In this document: piece by piece, positions 23,637 through 35,503 of the stretch
Position numbering within the stretch: the stretch's first letter is position 1
How the letters are laid out: every line of letters begins with the position of its first letter
NCBI RefSeq assembly: GCF_017464355.1
Contig: NZ_JAFUAG010000007.1
Span: forward strand, 1-45,637
Direction of reading: 5' to 3'
Source: Ruminococcus sp.
GTDB taxonomy: Bacteria > Bacillota > Clostridia > Oscillospirales > Ruminococcaceae
Length of the DNA: 45,637 nt
The notes under the pieces: model-generated
Database searches by the model: none
Seen by the model: the letters and a program-made list of their open reading frames with translations, nothing else
What the model was told of the DNA's origin: nothing
Position numbers and translations under genes: made by a program

Positions 23637-23669
23637 ATACCCGAGGACAGCTTATCCTCGGGTATATTT
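23637..23669. terminator. Bidirectional terminator
   Basis: An 11-bp perfect stem, ATACCCGAGGA (23637-23647) with TCCTCGGGTAT (23655-23665), T-rich on the right and A-rich on the left. It separates the sensor gene from the convergent EAL-beta-helix gene. Confidence 0.8.
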
Positions 23670-26600
23670 TATTCTGTCTGAGTCGGCCGCTGACGTTCCT
23701 CACCGTTTACGATGAAGCGCTGGCCGCTGTTTATCAGGACGATATCCTCGCTGTCGGCACAGCAGTCAAGGCCTGTGGTGTTGTTGATAGTCCACTTGAT
23801 ATCCGAACGGCGGGCTATCATGCTGACATCGCCGTTCTCGCCCCCAAGGGCAAGGGACTTATCCCCTGCTATATCCATTTTGAGCATGGCATCTGTCAGC
23901 CGCAGCACAGTGCTTCCGCTTAGGGAGCCCACAGCTGTCAGCACCACACCGTTCATGGAGATATACACCCCTGAGTTTTCCACTGACAGTTCAGTGTTCC
24001 TGCCGCTGAGGTTGCCTATTGCGAAGCCCTCGTTGCCGTCGCCGTATATCTTTATGGAGCTTTGCTCCACAGACACGCTGGAAGAACCTGTCACCGCACC
24101 TATACCGCCGCCGTGCTGGGCATTGAACTCCACGGAGATATTGGTGTTTTCCAGCACCACATCAGCATTGCCGCTTAAGGCACCTATGCCGATGATATCA
24201 TGACCGTCCGCGTCAATGGTGACAGATCCGCTGACTACCCTTATCTTTCCGCCGAGACCAGAACCTATGCAGGCCCCGTTGACCCCGTGTCCGCCGATAT
24301 TCAGCGAACCGTTCATGGCCAGGAAAAGCTCGCCGTGTTCCTCAGCAGGCAGATTGCCTATGCCGTAGAAGTCCAGGGCTCTCAGCTCTATCTTCAGGTT
24401 GCCGTCCCCCTCCAGGGTCAGGCGGGCAGACTTGGGCACCCGTATGCCCGTGTTTTTCAGGGTGTTCTCACCCACGATGACCAGCGCCACATCGGCATTC
24501 TCGCCCAGGTCTATACAGGGATTTTTCACATCGTTGGAAAGGCAGGCGTTCTCCAGAGTTATCCTGCCCCTGTAATCAGGCTCTACCCTAATATGCACAT
24601 TTGTCTTCACACCCGGGGTGCCGAAGACGGTGATGTCCTTGTAGATCATAGCGCCCTGACCCACAACTATCTCGCTGACACCGTCCCTTACCAGAGTTGT
24701 AAGTGCCACACGGTTGGTCTTGCCTGCCACATACTGGCGCACTGCACCGCCGTTCTCGTATTCCTCGTGGTACCTGGCTATCTCGTGACGCACCTTTTCA
24801 TCTATCTCTCCGATGAACTCATTGTCAGGCTTGCCTGTGTAGAAGCCCTGTATCAGGTCGGCCCCCAGCAGTATGCAGGCACGGAGTTCCTCTGTAGTCT
24901 CAATGCCCTCCGCCAGCGCCATTATGCCGTTGTCATGGCAGAAGTTTATTACCTCCTTGACAAAGTGCTGTTTCTGGGGCTTGTTCTGCACATCGCTCAA
25001 AAGCACACGGTCTATCTTGACATAGTCGGGCATATATCTCAGCAGGTTGCTTACATTCGAGTAGCCTGTTCCGTAGTCGTCAACGGCTATTTTAACGTCC
25101 ATGCGCTTGAACATCTCTTTCAGGCGGTTGAGGTCGGCATCGTCCATTTCGGCTTCCTCAGTAAGCTCTACCACCACTGTGTCCCCAAGATGTTTCAGGT
25201 AGCCCTCTATCTCCTCCATGTCCTCCCCCGTCAGCCTTACACCGGGTATGCTGTTTATGAATATCTTGGCATCGCCGATGATATCCATGTTATCCTCCAC
25301 CAGGGCAAGCACGTTCTTGAAGGTAGCCCTTTCCACGTCAGCCAGCCTGTTCTGCATATCCGCATACTTTACTATTGAAAGGGGCGGCACACGCTTGTCC
25401 GTGGCCGAACGCATGAGCGCTTCATAGGAATATATCCCGCCGTCCTTGGCATTGACGATAGGCTGGAAACGATATGAGAGCAGATTGTCATCAAGTATTT
25501 TTGTGACCAGCTCATAGTCCGCCTTTTCATCTTCATCAAGACGGTCGTAGGCTGCGGTCATGGCGGCGAACTTGCCGCTTTTCAGCTTGTCCAGCTGGGT
25601 CTGGAGATTTCTTGCGGTCACAGCCCGCCTGAGTCCCTCTATCCCGCGGGAAACAAGGCCTATCCACCTGCGGTAGGTCTCATCATAGCTTCTGGGCGCA
25701 CTGCCGTATTCCACTGCCGCATAGCCGAAATTCTGGTTCTCAAAGAACACAGGTGTGAAGAACCATGCCCTGGGCTTATCCGCAGGCTCTGCCAGCTCAG
25801 GCAGAAGTTCTTCGGTGTCAAATATCCTTTCAAGGCCAGCAAGACCGTCCTTGCGGTCACTGCGGTACCTTACGGCATATATCATCTTGTCGGTGTAGCC
25901 CTCGTTGGGACAGGCAAGGTTATGGCTGCCGTCCATATATTTCCAGCGCTCGCAGAGGCAGAGATGAAAGCTCTCCGCACCCTTTATCTGGAAAGCGTAG
26001 GAATACACAGTACCCAGCAGGTCGGCAAGACTTGTCTGTATCAGCAACTCCTCCGCCATGGTGTTGTTCACCGAGTCAAAGCCTTCCTCGGATATATCGG
26101 TGCCCCATTCACGGCGCTTCATATCAAACTCAGGGATATTTGTGTGCTTGCAGCCGCAGCTTTCCCCTATGACCAGATAGGGCTGGGCGGTGTAGGGCTC
26201 GTTCTTCATGCCATGGAAGATGTTATCCATATACCCCGCCGCATAGCGGCCTGCTTCCTCCGCCGGTATCAGCGAAGAGGTTATGGACTTGGGCGCAGTC
26301 TGCCCCTCAAAGGTCGAGTCATAGCTGACCACGGCGATATCCGCAGGTATCTTTACTCCCCTCTCGGTCAGCGCCTTGCACAGGCCTATGGCCATGGCGT
26401 CGTTGGCACACACCACCGCCTCGGGCAGGCCTTTCTCGCTTGCAAGCAGCACATCTGCACAAAGCTCACCGCTCTGATACCAGAAGTCACCGTATATTAT
26501 CCTGTCCTCGGGCAGGGTGAGCCCATGGCTCTCCAGAGCATCCTGCACGGCCTTAAGACGCTGTTTTGCGTGCTTATGCCACTTCTTGCCCGAAAGAAAA

Positions 26601-27013
26601 GCTATGTCCTTATAACCATGCACCTCGATAAGGTGTGAGACCAGCTCCACCACTGCATCATGACATTCGGTGAAAATGCTTGGAAAATACGGGCTGTCCT
26701 TTTCAATGACCAGCACAGGCTTGTCAAAGCTGCGCTGCAGTTTTTCTTCGAGGGCAAGGGCTGCATCGGCGGTCTGTATAGTATCCTCCAGTATCACAGC
26801 CCCATCGAACATCTCAGGGCGCATCAGCGAGAATATATTTGCCTCGCCCTGCTCGCGCACTGCTGTATTCTGGTATTTATGGTACATCGAGAACACGCAC
26901 ACGTCCATATCACTGCCAAACGCGCTCGCTAGAAATCCCGTTATGAATTTGCTCTGATAGCTTTCATCCGCCTGTCCCACGAACAAGGCTATCCTTTTCC
27001 TGCCCTCTCCCAT
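23669..27013 (-). CDS. LacI-like sensor, EAL phosphodiesterase and beta-helix fusion
   Basis: A 1114-residue protein with no signal peptide or membrane helix. Four parts are seen. (1) A LacI-type binding fold (about 5-290) with AVVCANDAMAIGL and an ESCGC segment at its end. (2) A GAF-like and helical region (about 300-500). (3) An EAL domain (about 510-750) with YEALMR, FINS, VVELTEE, VDDYGTGYS, VKIDR, AEGIETT and QGFYTGKP, all residues needed for c-di-GMP hydrolysis. (4) A C-terminal beta-solenoid (about 770-1100) of about 25-residue turns, each with an I-G-x-L-S-G-like corner (ACIGSGLGG, IGIGALSGN, GGIGAVTGS, FAIGNLSGR, TAVGSLSGS). Such repeats usually occur on surface proteins. GAGGAG sets ATG 27013. 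It is convergent with the FIST-EAL operon and has its own promoter. Confidence 0.85.
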   Translation of the reverse strand: MGEGRKRIALFVGQADESYQSKFITGFLASAFGSDMDVCVFSMYHKYQNTAVREQGEANIFSLMRPEMFDGAVILEDTIQTADAALALEEKLQRSFDKPVLVIEKDSPYFPSIFTECHDAVVELVSHLIEVHGYKDIAFLSGKKWHKHAKQRLKAVQDALESHGLTLPEDRIIYGDFWYQSGELCADVLLASEKGLPEAVVCANDAMAIGLCKALTERGVKIPADIAVVSYDSTFEGQTAPKSITSSLIPAEEAGRYAAGYMDNIFHGMKNEPYTAQPYLVIGESCGCKHTNIPEFDMKRREWGTDISEEGFDSVNNTMAEELLIQTSLADLLGTVYSYAFQIKGAESFHLCLCERWKYMDGSHNLACPNEGYTDKMIYAVRYRSDRKDGLAGLERIFDTEELLPELAEPADKPRAWFFTPVFFENQNFGYAAVEYGSAPRSYDETYRRWIGLVSRGIEGLRRAVTARNLQTQLDKLKSGKFAAMTAAYDRLDEDEKADYELVTKILDDNLLSYRFQPIVNAKDGGIYSYEALMRSATDKRVPPLSIVKYADMQNRLADVERATFKNVLALVEDNMDIIGDAKIFINSIPGVRLTGEDMEEIEGYLKHLGDTVVVELTEEAEMDDADLNRLKEMFKRMDVKIAVDDYGTGYSNVSNLLRYMPDYVKIDRVLLSDVQNKPQKQHFVKEVINFCHDNGIMALAEGIETTEELRACILLGADLIQGFYTGKPDNEFIGEIDEKVRHEIARYHEEYENGGAVRQYVAGKTNRVALTTLVRDGVSEIVVGQGAMIYKDITVFGTPGVKTNVHIRVEPDYRGRITLENACLSNDVKNPCIDLGENADVALVIVGENTLKNTGIRVPKSARLTLEGDGNLKIELRALDFYGIGNLPAEEHGELFLAMNGSLNIGGHGVNGACIGSGLGGKIRVVSGSVTIDADGHDIIGIGALSGNADVVLENTNISVEFNAQHGGGIGAVTGSSSVSVEQSSIKIYGDGNEGFAIGNLSGRNTELSVENSGVYISMNGVVLTAVGSLSGSTVLRLTDAMLKMDIAGDKSLALGGENGDVSMIARRSDIKWTINNTTGLDCCADSEDIVLINSGQRFIVNGEERQRPTQTE

Positions 27014-27072
27014 ACTAAAACTCCTCTTCCCGACTATATACACAGCCATTCAAGCACATAATATCATGTTTT

Positions 27073-27101
27073 ATTATAACATATAATTGTTTGATTTGCA
27101 A
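27073..27101 (-). promoter_or_regulatory. Promoter of the EAL-beta-helix gene
   Basis: On the minus strand, TTGCAA (27096-27101), 17-bp spacer, TATAAT (27073-27078). Confidence 0.7.
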
Positions 27102-27197: not shown

Positions 27198-29444
27198 CTA
27201 TTTGCTCCGCTTTTTCAGAAGCTCTATGTACTCCGCCCTTGTTATACCGCCGTACTTTTTCGCAAAGTCATCAAGGGTGCTGTCGGCGGGCAGACCGAGA
27301 AACTCCATGACCATATTGAACTTATCCCGCTTTTCGGGGGTAAGCAGACTGAAATAGAGCTTGGGGTACTTAGCCAGCAGTTCTGCCATGGTCCTGCCGC
27401 AGAAATAAGAGGTTATACCCAGCGACACCCCGCCGTTGAAGCACCTGTCCTCCTCCAGCAATTTGCGGATATTATCAGGCACCTCGTCCCAGGGCACCTC
27501 AAAGGAAGCGAAGCCCCATTCCACATACAGCGCCCTCGGGGCTTTCATTTCAGGCTTTGGCTTTTTCGGGGACATCTTCACGAAGGTCTCCGCCGTGAAC
27601 ATATTGAAATGCTCATTCCTTTTACCCACCCTTGCCAGCTGCAGCTCAAACTGTATATCCTCGGGAACAAGCTCCTTGTGGGCGACTATCTTGTGGGTCC
27701 CCCAGAGGATATCATTGTCCGAGCAGATGTCGGGCGCACGCAGAGGTCTGTCTGCCAGCTCCTCTGGGGTCATGTCAGCGTTATCGGTGATGAAGTCGTA
27801 CATTCTAACCACAATGGGCATAGTCATCAGTGAACGGAAAGAGTGGGTCTCGGGAAGCTCCTGCCACTTTTCCAGCTTTCTGGTGCTGCCTATGATGAGG
27901 CCGTAGGCATAATGCTCCCTGTCTGCTCTGCAGCGGAAGATATCCCCCTCCCTGAATTTCACCGTCTGATGACCCGTGTTTCGCACCTCATCGACCTGCT
28001 CAAAATAATCATCGGGGCAGGTGGAGATGTAGTATCTCATGAACTCGTGGAAGTCCTCATCGGTCAGTATCTTTTTGATACGTTCTGTTTCGCCTATAGC
28101 TATCTTCTGATTATTGCGGTAATTGCCTGCCCATATGCCGCTTTCGCCCTTTTTCAGGTAGATATCCAGCGTACCCCCGTAGGGCTCCCCTGCCATGACA
28201 TTTGAGGGAGTCACGGGCTTTGCCCTGCCCCTGCCCGTCTTTGGCCTGAGCATTTTCCGTTCCTCGGTCTCCAGGCGGGTGTCGAATTCAGTGTAGTTTC
28301 TGCTCAGCACCCGGCCCTCATCGTTTACCGCGTATTCCTCATATATGACCTTGACTATGGTGTCACCCTGATAAAACAGCGTCGTCCGCTTTTTGAGGAT
28401 ATGGGTAACACTGAACATAGTCTCGCTTTCAAGATCATCGTTCATGGGATCCAGGGCGAGGTACTTTCTCTCCTCATTGGTGAGCATTACGGCGTATTCG
28501 CCCTCTCTGAAATACTGCTCCGCCTTTGATACAGCCTTTTTTGGAGGGACAGAGGCTTCTTCGGTTTTCTCGGGAACAACGGCCTTTTCGGGAGAAAGCT
28601 TATCCCCGCAAAAACTGCCGAAGACCTCTTTTACCGCCTGATAGTTCACGCCCTCTCTCCCCCGCCAGAAATTCAGCGGGTAAAAGCTCAGGCCGTCCCT
28701 GCCCATGCCGTGTTCATCAAAATTTGCAAAGCTGTGGAGAAAGCCCTTGTTCTCAGCACCCTCCAGTATGCCGCAGACGGAAAGTATGCCCAGTATGCAG
28801 TGGATAGCATTTCCCGTGGCCTCGAAGAATTTCCGCTTGCGTATCTCGGCCAGAAGTGCGGTATCCATGTTGTGGGGCTTCATTTCAGCCACGCAGGCAA
28901 AAATGCCGTTGAGTATGCTGTAGTCTTCCTCGCAGGGTTCCACGGGGGGAAGCTTTTCAAACTCCCGCAGGTCGTTGAGGACATATTCAGCGCAGGAATA
29001 ATCGGGCTCGCTGCCGTACTGCTTGGGCGGCAGGTAGCGGAAGACATTGTACTTGTTCCAGTCCACCTCCTCAGCACTCTCCAGCCCGTGGGAACAGCCG
29101 CAGACAACGCAGACAGGCCTGCGCCACTCTGTCCTTTCTGCACCGTCGGAAACAAGCTCATGCGCGGGAAGCGCCCTTGCCCACACCAGGCTCGATACCG
29201 CCGAACGGTATCTCATATCCCCGCTTGAAAGGCTGTACAGAAAGCCCTTGGCTGCTTTTTCAAGGGATATGCGCTCTGCCAGCGCCTTTATCTCAGCTGT
29301 CATCTCATCGTGGGTGATACAGCTTTTCTCTGCCAGCACCCCGCTTTTTATGCCGTTTGCCCACTCGCTCTCAGTGGGCTGTTCCTTCATGATATTGGTA
29401 AGATAATACTTTTTCAGTACCCCAAGGGCTTTCTTGTCGGTCAT
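27198..29444 (-). CDS. Large protein with Imm26-like domain
   Basis: A 748-residue soluble protein. The N-terminal half (1-330) is not recognised; it has a C-V-V-C-G-C cluster near 110-115 that could bind zinc, and a charged linker near 290-320. The segment about 510-640, beginning KFREGDIFRCRADREHYAYG and continuing through VVRMYDF to the GTHKIVAHKE stretch, resembles the Imm26 immunity-domain pattern (G-D-x-F followed by a Y-x-x-G strand and a late W/F). The tail (about 640-748) holds helices with K-R-D-K-F-N-M-V-M. No toxin gene is adjacent. The start at ATG 29444 is set by AAGGAGG; upstream residues to 29576 cross the promoter. Function is unknown, and the Imm26 match is by eye. Confidence 0.7.
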   Translation of the reverse strand: MTDKKALGVLKKYYLTNIMKEQPTESEWANGIKSGVLAEKSCITHDEMTAEIKALAERISLEKAAKGFLYSLSSGDMRYRSAVSSLVWARALPAHELVSDGAERTEWRRPVCVVCGCSHGLESAEEVDWNKYNVFRYLPPKQYGSEPDYSCAEYVLNDLREFEKLPPVEPCEEDYSILNGIFACVAEMKPHNMDTALLAEIRKRKFFEATGNAIHCILGILSVCGILEGAENKGFLHSFANFDEHGMGRDGLSFYPLNFWRGREGVNYQAVKEVFGSFCGDKLSPEKAVVPEKTEEASVPPKKAVSKAEQYFREGEYAVMLTNEERKYLALDPMNDDLESETMFSVTHILKKRTTLFYQGDTIVKVIYEEYAVNDEGRVLSRNYTEFDTRLETEERKMLRPKTGRGRAKPVTPSNVMAGEPYGGTLDIYLKKGESGIWAGNYRNNQKIAIGETERIKKILTDEDFHEFMRYYISTCPDDYFEQVDEVRNTGHQTVKFREGDIFRCRADREHYAYGLIIGSTRKLEKWQELPETHSFRSLMTMPIVVRMYDFITDNADMTPEELADRPLRAPDICSDNDILWGTHKIVAHKELVPEDIQFELQLARVGKRNEHFNMFTAETFVKMSPKKPKPEMKAPRALYVEWGFASFEVPWDEVPDNIRKLLEEDRCFNGGVSLGITSYFCGRTMAELLAKYPKLYFSLLTPEKRDKFNMVMEFLGLPADSTLDDFAKKYGGITRAEYIELLKKRSK

Positions 29445-29466
29445 GGCTGTTGCCTCCTTTTTTAAT

Positions 29467-29495
29467 ATAATAACACGATCAAGCCTTCCCGTCAA
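29467..29495 (-). promoter_or_regulatory. Promoter of the Imm26-like gene
   Basis: On the minus strand, TTGACG (29490-29495), 17-bp spacer, TATTAT (29467-29472). Divergent from the tRNA promoter. Confidence 0.65.
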
Positions 29496-29529
29496 TATAA
29501 TTGAGGGAAAAATATCTCCCTTAAAACTA

Positions 29530-29558
29530 TTGACAAGCGGGAAGTTATGTGATATAAT
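29530..29558 (+). promoter_or_regulatory. tRNA-Ala operon promoter
   Basis: Perfect TTGACA (29530-29535), 17-bp spacer, perfect TATAAT (29553-29558), 18 bases before the first tRNA. Confidence 0.85.
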
Positions 29559-29576
29559 ATCTTTTGTCAAGAGCAA

Positions 29577-31040: not shown

Positions 31041-31700
31041 TTATAGGAAAGCTCCTATCATTCTCTGAACTATATCCTTTCTGGTAAGACCGCTTTTGCA
31101 GTCATCAGCTGTTTCAAGGATATATCGCTCATATCCGTTGATTATCTTAGCACCGCTGGGGTGGTTCAGCACACGCTTGAATCGGCTGCCGTAGGTCGCA
31201 TGAACGTGTCCGTGAAGCATATATTTCGGCTGACAGCGCTCCATCAGCTCGCTGAAGCACTCAAATCCCCTGTGGGGCAGGTCATCCATATCGCCGTAAT
31301 CTCTTGCGGGGGAATGGGTGACAAGGATATCAAAGCCCGAGTTGTTGAAAATGGTCTGCTTGCAGTGCCAGATACGCCGCCTCATTTCCTTCTCAGTATA
31401 CATGAATGGTCGGTCGCCGTATTTCATCGAGCCGCCCAAGCCTAAAAAGCGCAGTCCGCCCACGGTAACTATCTTTCCGTCGATATTCACGCAGCCCTCG
31501 GGCGGGTGATCGGTGTACTTGGTGTCATGGTTCCCGGGAACGTACAGCAAAGGCGCCCTGCCCATAGTCACCAGAAACTCAAGATATTCCGCTTTCAGGT
31601 CGCCGCAGGAAACTATCAGGTCAATGCCCTCCAGCTTGTCGGGAGTGTAATAGTCCCACAAAGCCTTGCATTCCTCGTCTGCTAATATCAGTATCTTCAT
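31041..31700 (-). CDS. Calcineurin-like metallophosphoesterase
   Basis: A 219-residue cytoplasmic protein of the metallophosphoesterase superfamily. Metal-binding motifs are seen in order: ILADEE near the start (in place of D-x-H), VSCGDLK (G-D), VPGNHDT (G-N-H-D, about 56-59), VTHSPARD (the T-H site), and GHVHATYG (G-H-x-H). The first motif, normally D-x-H, is altered (AD-EE), so metal site A may be unusual. The substrate may be a nucleotide, a phosphoprotein or RNA. It overlaps the upstream BMP-like gene by 4 bases, so the two proteins are probably made together. Confidence 0.85.
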   Translation of the reverse strand: MKILILADEECKALWDYYTPDKLEGIDLIVSCGDLKAEYLEFLVTMGRAPLLYVPGNHDTKYTDHPPEGCVNIDGKIVTVGGLRFLGLGGSMKYGDRPFMYTEKEMRRRIWHCKQTIFNNSGFDILVTHSPARDYGDMDDLPHRGFECFSELMERCQPKYMLHGHVHATYGSRFKRVLNHPSGAKIINGYERYILETADDCKSGLTRKDIVQRMIGAFL

Positions 31701-33574
31701 AGCTCGTCAATGTTGTCGTTCAGCCAGTTCATCGAAACTATATCGGCGGCCTTCATGGTCTGACGTTCGATCGGCAAGCCGACTCTTTTCGCTGTTTCAG
31801 CCTGCATGATCGTTCCTTTATCGGTATGAAGTTCACCTGTGAACGGGTCATATCCGCCGTTGACTATGGAGTTTTTGAAAAATGCCAGCAGCTTGTCTGT
31901 GCGGTAGTCGGGGTCATTGACTCTGATGTCAACAACGCCTGTCGAAAGACCGAACCAATATCCTGCAGCCTTTTTTTCTTTCAGCTTTTCACCCAGTTCC
32001 CACGCGCCCGAAAGCACCGACTGCACGATCTGGACATAGTATTTCCCCCAGCTGAAATAGGGTGTGCCGATGTATTCGTCCTTGGTATTACCTATGCGGT
32101 AAAGTCCCGGGCGCTTCAAGGCATCGTTCCTGCTCGAATAGTCGAGATCGGCATAGTATCTCACGCCCTGCGCCGCCAATTTTTCACGGCTGTCGGTGCC
32201 GTTATCATAATTAAGCAGCACCCTGCATTCGGGGTCGATAAGGGACACACCTATCGCAAAGGCATTGAGGTCGCGGTATATAAGCTCACTCTCCGAAGAC
32301 GCAAGATAGCCTATACGTCTTGGCTTTTCACCGCCCTCACGCAGAAGCATATCAGCAGCAAGAATGCCCATAAGGAACGTCGCTTCATAGAGTTTCCCGT
32401 GATAGTATCTTACCGACGAATACTTCTGACCCGCCGAACAGCAGATAAACTTCACGTTCGGGTTTTGCACAGCGGCTTTTAAAGTTTCGGGTATCATGCT
32501 TTCCGACACCGCAAATATTATCTCGTTCTTATCAGCGACCGCCCGCCCGATAGCTTCCTGCGGCTCGCCGATGTAGCGTTCGGTCACAACGTTGTCCCCC
32601 GTAACCTCGTCAACATACAGCCTGCCCGCCTCATGGCTGTCCGTCCAGCGCGAATCGTCGGGCTCAGTATCATAGATGAATGCTGCACGCAGCGGAGAAA
32701 CGGCAGTATATTTTCTTCTGCCGAACAATTTGATAAACGGGTTGGCGGGCTGTTCATTTCTGTCGGGTGCGGATTCAAGATAGGCTATCTCAACGGTGTC
32801 TTTTGCATTGAACTCTGCTCTCGCCATTTTTATGTTCTTGATTATCTGCTCCTCGCTGTCACGGACAAGAGTTTTGAGTGGGAAAATCGAGATGTACATG
32901 AGAAACGCTTCCGACAGCGTGCGGTAGTCGGTAATGCCGAGAGCCTTTCTGCATTTCCTGCAAAAGCTGAAAAACGTCGTTTTCAGCTCAGCGCAGAGAT
33001 TTTCGTCCCATCTGCCGTTCAGGTCCTGCCCCAGCAGGTCGGCAAGGCGCGCATATTCTCCAGGCTCGGAGAACACGATATAAAAATTTTTCGTGGCCGC
33101 ATAAAAATCCATATACTCGGCATAGACCTTGTATTCCCTGGTGTCATCGGGCTTTGGCATTATCCTGTAAACGTCCGCAAGTATAAACTCCATATCGCCG
33201 TATTTAGACACTGAAACGCGCTTGTTTCCCTCCTGAACGTAGTAATCGTTCATGAACTCATAGACCTTTATCGCATCGCGGATACCCTCTTTAAGAAAAG
33301 AATCATACAAGGCAGACCACTTTACGGCAAACTCCGTTCCCTCATCCAGCAGAGGCATGAAATTGTTCGCAAAGGCAGAATTACGTCCCTGCCCCTTGTT
33401 ACCTATGATACGGCTCACGGGAAGCTCCATAAGCCCCAGATGTATCTCACTGCCGCTGCTTTTTGCAGCATCAAGCTCATCAAGCACGGGCAGATAAGGT
33501 GATACGTCCTTTCTCTTAGCTTCTTTTACTGCGTCATCCGCCAGCTTTTTTGCAGCTTTATAGTCCTCTCTCAC
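31697..33574 (-). CDS. ParB-like and BMP-like cytoplasmic sensor protein
   Basis: A 625-residue protein without a signal peptide. The N-terminal part (about 40-140) ends in EGNKRVSV, the G-N-x-R-V-x-x pattern of ParB-like nuclease folds. A helical middle (140-270) follows. The C-terminal half (about 290-560) resembles the basic membrane protein (BMP, PF02608) solute-binding fold, which normally binds nucleosides outside the cell; RAAFIYDTEPDDSRWT and FICCSAGQKYSSVRYYHGKLYEATFLMGILA fit that fold. Here it appears to have been recruited to the cytoplasm. GTG 33574 is preceded by AAGGAGG with a 10-base gap. It overlaps the phosphoesterase gene by 4 bases. Confidence 0.75.
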   Translation of the reverse strand: MREDYKAAKKLADDAVKEAKRKDVSPYLPVLDELDAAKSSGSEIHLGLMELPVSRIIGNKGQGRNSAFANNFMPLLDEGTEFAVKWSALYDSFLKEGIRDAIKVYEFMNDYYVQEGNKRVSVSKYGDMEFILADVYRIMPKPDDTREYKVYAEYMDFYAATKNFYIVFSEPGEYARLADLLGQDLNGRWDENLCAELKTTFFSFCRKCRKALGITDYRTLSEAFLMYISIFPLKTLVRDSEEQIIKNIKMARAEFNAKDTVEIAYLESAPDRNEQPANPFIKLFGRRKYTAVSPLRAAFIYDTEPDDSRWTDSHEAGRLYVDEVTGDNVVTERYIGEPQEAIGRAVADKNEIIFAVSESMIPETLKAAVQNPNVKFICCSAGQKYSSVRYYHGKLYEATFLMGILAADMLLREGGEKPRRIGYLASSESELIYRDLNAFAIGVSLIDPECRVLLNYDNGTDSREKLAAQGVRYYADLDYSSRNDALKRPGLYRIGNTKDEYIGTPYFSWGKYYVQIVQSVLSGAWELGEKLKEKKAAGYWFGLSTGVVDIRVNDPDYRTDKLLAFFKNSIVNGGYDPFTGELHTDKGTIMQAETAKRVGLPIERQTMKAADIVSMNWLNDNIDEL

Positions 33575-34033: not shown

Positions 34034-35503
34034 TTACAGGCCGTATATGGACATGGCCATAAGTATGCTGCCAACGATGGCACGCAGTTCGGCGATGACC
34101 TCGGGGGTACCCTCGACCACTGTCCTGCCGTCCCCTGAAATGGCTGCCTCCTCCAGCTTGGCGGCCTTTTCGGAGATATCCATGGCGCCCACGGTCTTTG
34201 AGGCGCTTTTCAGCGAATGGATATAAACACGGTACTGCTCCAGATTTCCGCAGGCTACGCATTCTTCCAGGTGGCGCACCCTGTCATCGGAGCTGCCTGT
34301 GAACTCGGTGAGCATCTCGGCATAGAACTCGGTATCGTTCATGCAGTATTTCATGCCCACGGCGGTATCAAGGCCGTTGGCCTCCAGCATGGAAAGAAAA
34401 CCGAAAACGAACTCGCTGTCGTCGGTCTGCTTCTGCTCCACTGCCACACCTTCATCGCTGACCAGGTAGGCATCGGGGTCCTCACGCATACTGTACTCGG
34501 TATCCTCGGCTATCATCTCCAGCATGATGTCGGCAAACCTCGGGTCGAACTGGGTGCCCTTGCCGTTTATAAGCTCGCTGCGGATATATTCCTGGGCGAA
34601 GACATCGTGGTAGCTTCGCCTTGAAGACATGGCATCGTAGGCATCGGCCACTGCTATTATCCTGGCCTCCTCGGGGATATCCTCGCCTTTCAGCCCGTCG
34701 GGATAGCCTGTGCCGTCATACCTTTCGTGGTGCCACCTGGCGGCCACGGCAAGCTCGGGCATCTCGGTTATGCGCTTAAGGATATCATGCCCCACTACAG
34801 GGTGCTGCTTGATGATATCATACTCCTCGGGAGTAAGCTTGGTGGGCTTGTTTATGACAGAGTCGGGCACACCTATCTTGCCTACATCGTGCAGCAGACC
34901 CATCATGTATATACGCTCCTGGAACTCCTCTGGATAGCCCGCACTTCTGGCTATCTCCCTGGAATATTCAGCCACACGGGTAGAATGGCCGTTGGTGTAC
35001 TTATCCTTGGCATCGACCGCCCCTGCCAGTGTTTCTACCACCTGCATGGAGAGCCTTTCGTTCCTGCGGTGTTCCTCTATAAAATCGGCGCTGAGCTTTT
35101 TGGCCTCTTTTTTCAGGTCCCGCTGCAGCCTGTTGAGTTCGATGGTATTCTTGACCCTCAGCAGCAGCACCGAGGCCACAAAGGGCTTGCCCACAAAGTC
35201 CGCAGCCCCTGAGGTCAGCGCCTTTGTCTCGGTCTCAGCGTCATCGTCCGCCGTAAGGAAGATAACGGGGATATTTCTGGCATTGTGGTCAGCTTTGAGC
35301 TTCTGAATAGTTTCAAAGCCGTCTATGCCCGTCATATGTACGTCCAGCAGGATAAGGTCGGGCTTGTGCCCCTTGATATACTCCAGCAGCTCCTCTCCCG
35401 AGGTCAGGCAGTCTACACGGTAGCCGTAAAGACTGAGAATACGATCTGCTATTTTAAGATTACCCTTGTCGTCATCAGCGACAGCTATCAGGTATTCTTC
35501 CAT
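34034..35503 (-). CDS. REC-HD-GYP-Hpt regulator, c-di-GMP phosphodiesterase
   Basis: A 489-residue cytoplasmic protein. The receiver domain (1-120) has phospho-acceptor Asp54. The HD-GYP domain (about 150-335) shows HSTRVAEYS, the HD of LLHDVGKIGVPD, HPVVGHDIL and the HHERYDGTGYPDGL signature, so it should hydrolyse c-di-GMP fully. The C-terminal Hpt helix bundle (about 370-485) has the phospho-His in YIHSLKSASK. Receiver, enzyme and phosphotransfer domains in one chain suggest a relay hub. It starts 19 bases after a receiver-only protein gene, which may exchange phosphate with the Hpt. AAAGGAG lies upstream. No kinase gene is adjacent. Confidence 0.92.
   Translation of the reverse strand: MEEYLIAVADDDKGNLKIADRILSLYGYRVDCLTSGEELLEYIKGHKPDLILLDVHMTGIDGFETIQKLKADHNARNIPVIFLTADDDAETETKALTSGAADFVGKPFVASVLLLRVKNTIELNRLQRDLKKEAKKLSADFIEEHRRNERLSMQVVETLAGAVDAKDKYTNGHSTRVAEYSREIARSAGYPEEFQERIYMMGLLHDVGKIGVPDSVINKPTKLTPEEYDIIKQHPVVGHDILKRITEMPELAVAARWHHERYDGTGYPDGLKGEDIPEEARIIAVADAYDAMSSRRSYHDVFAQEYIRSELINGKGTQFDPRFADIMLEMIAEDTEYSMREDPDAYLVSDEGVAVEQKQTDDSEFVFGFLSMLEANGLDTAVGMKYCMNDTEFYAEMLTEFTGSSDDRVRHLEECVACGNLEQYRVYIHSLKSASKTVGAMDISEKAAKLEEAAISGDGRTVVEGTPEVIAELRAIVGSILMAMSIYGL

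Follow-up and report, generated by a model that had tools for sequence, protein, structure and literature searches.

The window, i.e. the whole analysed stretch of 45,637 nucleotides from Ruminococcus sp., carries one intact open reading frame in which a LacI-like sensor, a middle region, an EAL domain and a beta-helix tail follow each other (Table 1). The preliminary description had given no strand for it; its coordinates match the minus-strand frame 27013..23669. A Shine-Dalgarno-like GAGGAG at 27026-27021 was recognised by eye for the start at 27013, and an alternative longer start at 27049 lacks such a site. Simple hydropathy revealed neither a signal nor a membrane segment in the 1114-aa protein, the highest 19-residue mean being 1.36 overall, with 1.24 as the maximum within the tail. 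No hydrophobic N-terminus was seen, in line with the lack of an export signal stated before, and export was left unsupported by this measure. The protein is thus predicted to be soluble and cytoplasmic.

Table 1. Coordinates of the EAL-solenoid gene, its domains and its adjoining genes in the window
Feature	Position	Strand	Remarks
EAL-solenoid gene: LacI-like sensor, middle region, EAL, beta-helix tail	23669..27013	-	one intact ORF, 1114 aa
Promoter-like site: TTGCAA (27101-27096), 17 bases, TATAAT (27078-27073)	27073..27101	-	by eye, candidate
LacI-like periplasmic-binding-protein fold, residues 1-290	26144..27013	-	no helix-turn-helix matched; Pfam, relatives, predicted structure
Middle region, residues 311-480, alpha/beta then long helix 445-478	25574..26083	-	predicted secondary structure
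EAL domain, residues 507-729, catalytic residues kept	24827..25495	-	Pfam, alignment to solved phosphodiesterases
Linker helix, residues 739-753, joins EAL and solenoid	24755..24799	-	predicted structure
Right-handed parallel beta-helix, residues ~757-1107 (~350 residues)	23693..24745	-	AF2, structural matching
Neighbour FIST-EAL protein, 873 aa	19256..21877	+	Pfam; kept in three genomes
Neighbour LacI-like sensor protein, 584 aa	21874..23628	+	Pfam shows no output domain; conserved beside the gene in these three genomes too

The LacI-type, sugar-binding-like fold proposed earlier for the N-terminal part was confirmed by a match to Peripla_BP_3 over the Pfam cut-off at residues 126-286. LacI-like domains bind small ligands, often sugars, and the Peripla_BP_3 fold is common to the protein and to the sensor domains of the LacI/GalR family (CcpA, PurR, LacI). 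In contrast to this family, no DNA-binding helix-turn-helix was matched and the output is the EAL domain: the Pfam scan of the 1114-aa protein yielded no HTH family at E ≤ 1, and the first strand of the predicted structure begins already at residue 7. Because of the missing helix-turn-helix the protein was not filed as a LacI regulator. The middle region between sensor and EAL domain (residues ~311-480) had no match in Pfam; a GAF-like fold would be a guess.

The EAL domain was recognised by Pfam with an E-value of 2.5e-46 (PF00563; 158.4 bits vs a cut-off of 31.3). Every motif was present in an alignment with BlrP1 (EAL, N, TE, DD, K, EGxE and Q), in agreement with the complete catalytic set reported in the preliminary description. 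The same catalytic and metal-binding columns were invariant across an alignment of 25 EAL domains; one relative outside this alignment (L060) has EIL in place of EAL within a variant EILMR motif, yet matches the Pfam family. Catalytic and metal-binding roles belong to the E of EAL, N, E, DD, K, E and Q, and EAL domains with these residues usually hydrolyse c-di-GMP. From the retained residues we infer catalysis, i.e. a predicted c-di-GMP phosphodiesterase. Known EAL phosphodiesterases (BlrP1, RocR, YahA and others) have the EAL domain, the catalytic residues and an N-terminal sensor in common with the protein, whereas the molecule titles of the solved ones that were aligned name no beta-helix and here a solenoid follows the EAL domain. 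On these sequence features the protein was filed as an EAL phosphodiesterase with a putative new C-terminal domain.

For this domain (residues 736-1114) AF2 predicted a continuous beta-solenoid with a mean pLDDT of 94.9. Solenoid turns with a corner glycine had been expected and were found, at a length slightly above the proposed 25 residues: corner glycines at tail residues 182, 209, 237, 265, 294 and 322 define turns of 27-29 residues. The full-length model reached a pTM of 0.55, therefore the placement of tail and EAL domain relative to each other is not confident. The two best structural matches of the tail model in VIA-align were autotransporter passengers, which we take to be non-enzymatic. 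The fold assignment rests on AF2 and VIA-align, because Foldseek alone gave no match at E ≤ 0.001, with TM-scores of at most 0.34 among the matches listed. Autotransporter passengers (Vag8, UpaB, pertactin) are 10-15% identical to the tail; unlike autotransporters, the tail protein has neither an outer-membrane barrel nor an export signal.

Sequence families gave the tail no name. Its only Pfam match in the 1114-aa protein was below threshold (GH97_C, 31 residues, 18 bits vs a cut-off of 25). Thirty tails matched 17 Pfam families at E ≤ 1, none convincingly (best single E 0.0043) and none of them carbohydrate-binding; Beta_helix_3 (PF18889) and the bactofilin family were absent from these 17. 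Bactofilin, a short right-handed beta-helix that forms filaments, is a cytoplasmic beta-helix polymer. Bactofilin and MinC-type beta-helices were also missing from the list of fold matches, an absence that does not amount to exclusion. PDB sequence searches with the tail yielded nothing convincing, with best E-values of 0.017 (SAKe6BR, five copies aligning alike) and 1.2. Among 75 tails all invariant columns were glycines, and the conserved polar columns formed no obvious catalytic cluster by eye. Aromatic residues are scarce in these 75 tails, with a median of 5.7% for W/Y/F and of zero for Trp, and the pI of the tails is acidic (median 5.25). Their first half, next to the EAL domain, is more conserved than the second (mean majority share 0.60-0.62 vs 0.42-0.44). 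The tail length is nearly constant at ~375 aa in 105 proteins, with medians of 379.5, 375, 377 and 370.5 aa in the classes defined by the position of the EAL motif; the extremes were 331 aa and four tails of 428-429 aa that run on into an extra C-terminal piece.

The architecture had been presented as undescribed. Searches of the accessible part of the open literature indeed found no description of an EAL domain joined to a beta-helix, nor of a system with such an architecture, but a lone oddity it is not: 113 distinct tail proteins, some of them near-copies, were collected. When 297 genomes of the same family were searched with the tail alone, 63 had a match at E ≤ 0.01; a few of these matches lie in frames not of the EAL type (e.g., G112). 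Around the tail matches, 39 of 40 stretches gave a tail-bearing frame at E 1e-3, the exception being L072. The EALMR motif was present in 37 of the 39 frames, and L043, at a contig end, shows only the last EAL motif. A Pfam scan of nine tail-bearing frames detected EAL in all nine, GGDEF over the cut-off in six and the LacI-like domain in three. An EAL-plus-tail alignment search of the contigs of named genomes confirmed at least 583 candidates, of which the best 80 were kept; their hosts are Ruminococcus albus, R. flavefaciens, rumen and gut Lachnospiraceae, Eubacterium, Saccharofermentans and other clostridia. The tail directly follows the EAL domain in all of these best 80, a list that favours tail-bearing matches of the query and gives no rate of EALs without a tail. 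It is shortened in three: L081 and L128 (contig end) and L112 (within the frame). The junction lies in a single frame in 80/80, and a frame error between EAL domain and repeats, considered in the preliminary description, was rejected together with a chance fusion.

The linkage also held when the search started from the EAL domain. In 148 family genomes, 31 of 33 EALs of the subfamily had the tail immediately downstream, the subfamily being delimited at ≥280 bits against the profile, a line placed at the gap from 284.8 to 258.9 after the scores had been seen. The two exceptions (G111:C1, G035:C57) end 21 and 25 residues after the EAL domain, therefore the tail is not essential to that EAL type. 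None of the next 16 EAL matches (196-259 bits) bears a tail; the eight inspected in detail end 21-48 residues after the EAL domain, the range in which ten tail-less relatives in all stop. Thirty-nine tail places were present in the 148 genomes: 31 at subfamily EALs, two contig-end fragments (L249, L250), five frames without EAL and with export-signal-like N-termini by eye (L242-L246; the matches in L242 and L245 were too weak for 1e-3 in a rescan) and one at G021:C76. In a class-level sample, 17 of 391 genomes had tail matches, four of them through weak matches only: L209 and L211 with signal-like N-termini, L210 with no signal in the frame as called, which ends at the contig end, and L242. 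Three new genomes among the other 13 were translated and revealed an EAL domain in all (L212, L213, L214). A phylum-level sample of 398 genomes gave three with a match at E ≤ 1e-10, each belonging to the same class. The tail is thus a recurrent and conserved module, apparently not described so far, whose occurrence is linked almost entirely to a single EAL subfamily. The genome of the window itself contains 13 EAL and 32 GGDEF matches; three more EAL-solenoid proteins of 693, 895 and 1249 aa are encoded on its contigs C8, C1 and C34.

A fold known mainly from secreted proteins had been suspected, and homology of the tail to repeat proteins of the exported type agrees with this. Domain E-values were ~5e-18 (L209) and ~7e-18 (L243) in small search sets, and hhalign gave a probability of 92% with an E of 6.5e-07 for L244. 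Motif order and turn pattern are in common with the exported IGGG-type beta-helix repeat proteins of Clostridia, near Beta_helix_3 (profile matches to L209, L211, L243 and L244). These have signal-like N-termini, whereas the EAL tail is predicted to be cytoplasmic, occurs in single copy, has a near-fixed length and belongs to no Pfam family. Because it lacks a signal, the EAL-solenoid protein was not filed among the exported beta-helix proteins. The large exported-type proteins at L209 (1760-9184, minus strand) and L243 (606-6056, minus strand) carry several copies of the tail-homologous domain. Thirty-nine tail-bearing EALs formed one clade against nine tail-less EALs of the window's genome (support 100/99), in a tree that presents a clustering and not a rooted history because the tail-less rows come from one genome and several branches are long. 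EAL and tail identities correlate (r 0.87, 0 of 2000 permutations, 37 proteins), as expected from joint inheritance. The N-terminal forms are LacI-EAL, LacI-GGDEF-EAL, a short helical form, and GGDEF-EAL, which by eye has a hydrophobic stretch at its N-terminus in some proteins but not in others. The homology to exported proteins, the single EAL clade and the correlated identities would fit a history in which an EAL protein acquired an exported-type beta-helix once and its N-terminus changed afterwards.

The genes for the FIST-EAL protein and for the LacI-like protein adjoin the EAL-solenoid gene also in three other genomes, two of R. albus and a Ruminococcus MAG (L077, L079, L080), with identities of 77-78% and 55-57%, respectively, and all genes on one strand there. 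They look like a sensor pair, given their overlap of 4 bases and their joint conservation in R. albus. Diguanylate cyclases adjoin the gene on the same strand in a minority of loci, and several of them carry a LacI-like sensor: Pfam detected LacI-GGDEF neighbours at L059, L061, L068, L091 and L102 and, at L126, a GGDEF protein, and a home-made profile added GGDEF neighbours at L090, L042, L046 and L055. A GGDEF gene lies within two genes at 7 of 41 loci. The cyclase beside L068 is missing at its close relative L069, the paralogue on contig C1 of the window's genome. A GGDEF, EAL or LacI-like gene lies no further than 1.5 kb away at 22 of the 79 best named loci considered. Genes of c-di-GMP or LacI type made up 23 of 232 near genes vs 11 of 439 genes beyond 4 kb, an approximate contrast that includes near-identical R. 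albus loci and a GGDEF profile built from 15 of those neighbours. With this weak clustering, a conserved neighbourhood that names a target was rejected. Elsewhere in the window, all on the minus strand, are the genes for a protein of 792 aa (27198-29576) whose residues 542-643 form an Imm26 immunity-protein domain, for a protein of 625 aa (31697-33574) whose residues 296-464 match a PnrA-like (Bmp) binding-protein domain, and for a response regulator with HD_5 and Hpt domains (34034-35503), which may be another c-di-GMP phosphodiesterase, of the HD-GYP type.

We propose a ligand-responsive c-di-GMP phosphodiesterase with the solenoid as its address or docking surface and give this reading close to an even chance. 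The LacI-like domain would bind a ligand, probably a sugar or similar small molecule, and thereby set the activity of the EAL domain. The rigid beta-helix of near-fixed length would keep the enzyme bound to a partner, a protein or a complex, and c-di-GMP would thereby be drained locally; in some genomes an adjacent diguanylate cyclase, in several with a LacI-like sensor, may oppose it. Docking to a putative protein address is the version of the preliminary idea that fits best. A docking surface is favoured over a carbohydrate binder by the scarcity of aromatic residues, the acidic pI, the near-constant length and the lack of a recurrent polysaccharide gene recognisable by eye among eight neighbour clusters. 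Against the docking model stand that no partner emerged, that genes of c-di-GMP or LacI type are absent from the nearest 1.5 kb at 57 of 79 best named loci, that a GGDEF gene is close by at only 7 of 41 loci, the cyclase-free L069 and the two of 33 subfamily EALs without a tail. The tail could equally act on the EAL domain itself. As an intramolecular or dimer-forming regulator, it would pack on the EAL domain or on the partner copy and set its activity with no external target; the helix that continues from the EAL domain into the tail in predicted structures and the joint divergence of both argue for this, as does the higher conservation of the adjoining tail half. This conservation fits a shared docking site or an EAL contact alike, so the regulator stays a strong competitor, if on balance a doubtful one: relatives without a tail exist, a rod of about a dozen turns would be large for contact with one domain, and the inter-domain placement in the model is not confident.

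The preliminary description had the tail bind an intracellular polysaccharide (e.g., glycogen) or a cell-envelope precursor. Signal-like N-termini in most homologues outside EAL frames, the LacI-like sensor and the rumen origin of many named hosts (best 80 of at least 583), presumably fibre degraders, are consistent with this, but the aromatic-poor composition and the 30 tails without a match to carbohydrate-binding Pfam families make it unlikely, and none of the eight neighbour clusters recurring in at least five loci looked like polysaccharide synthesis by eye. An enzyme of the pectate-lyase or epimerase kind is highly improbable in view of the two passenger matches, the exclusively glycine invariant columns and the lack of a visible catalytic cluster. 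Extending the docking model, one solenoid of exported proteins, captured once by a cytoplasmic EAL protein, may represent a new class of address domain for second-messenger enzymes. Phosphodiesterases that differ in their sensors would share it and be directed to one common site or partner in the cell, so that c-di-GMP signalling in these Gram-positive gut bacteria would run in a circuit confined in space; this we put forward tentatively.

How bacteria with dozens of c-di-GMP enzymes keep their signals apart is a long-standing question. Searches of the accessible open literature found no study of c-di-GMP control in these rumen clostridia. A rigid domain dedicated to one EAL subfamily offers a concrete handle on local c-di-GMP signalling, and a fold of exported proteins, in a domain left blank by Pfam, is now predicted inside the cell. 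The stiff solenoid may place a c-di-GMP-destroying enzyme at a particular intracellular spot in rumen and related gut bacteria.
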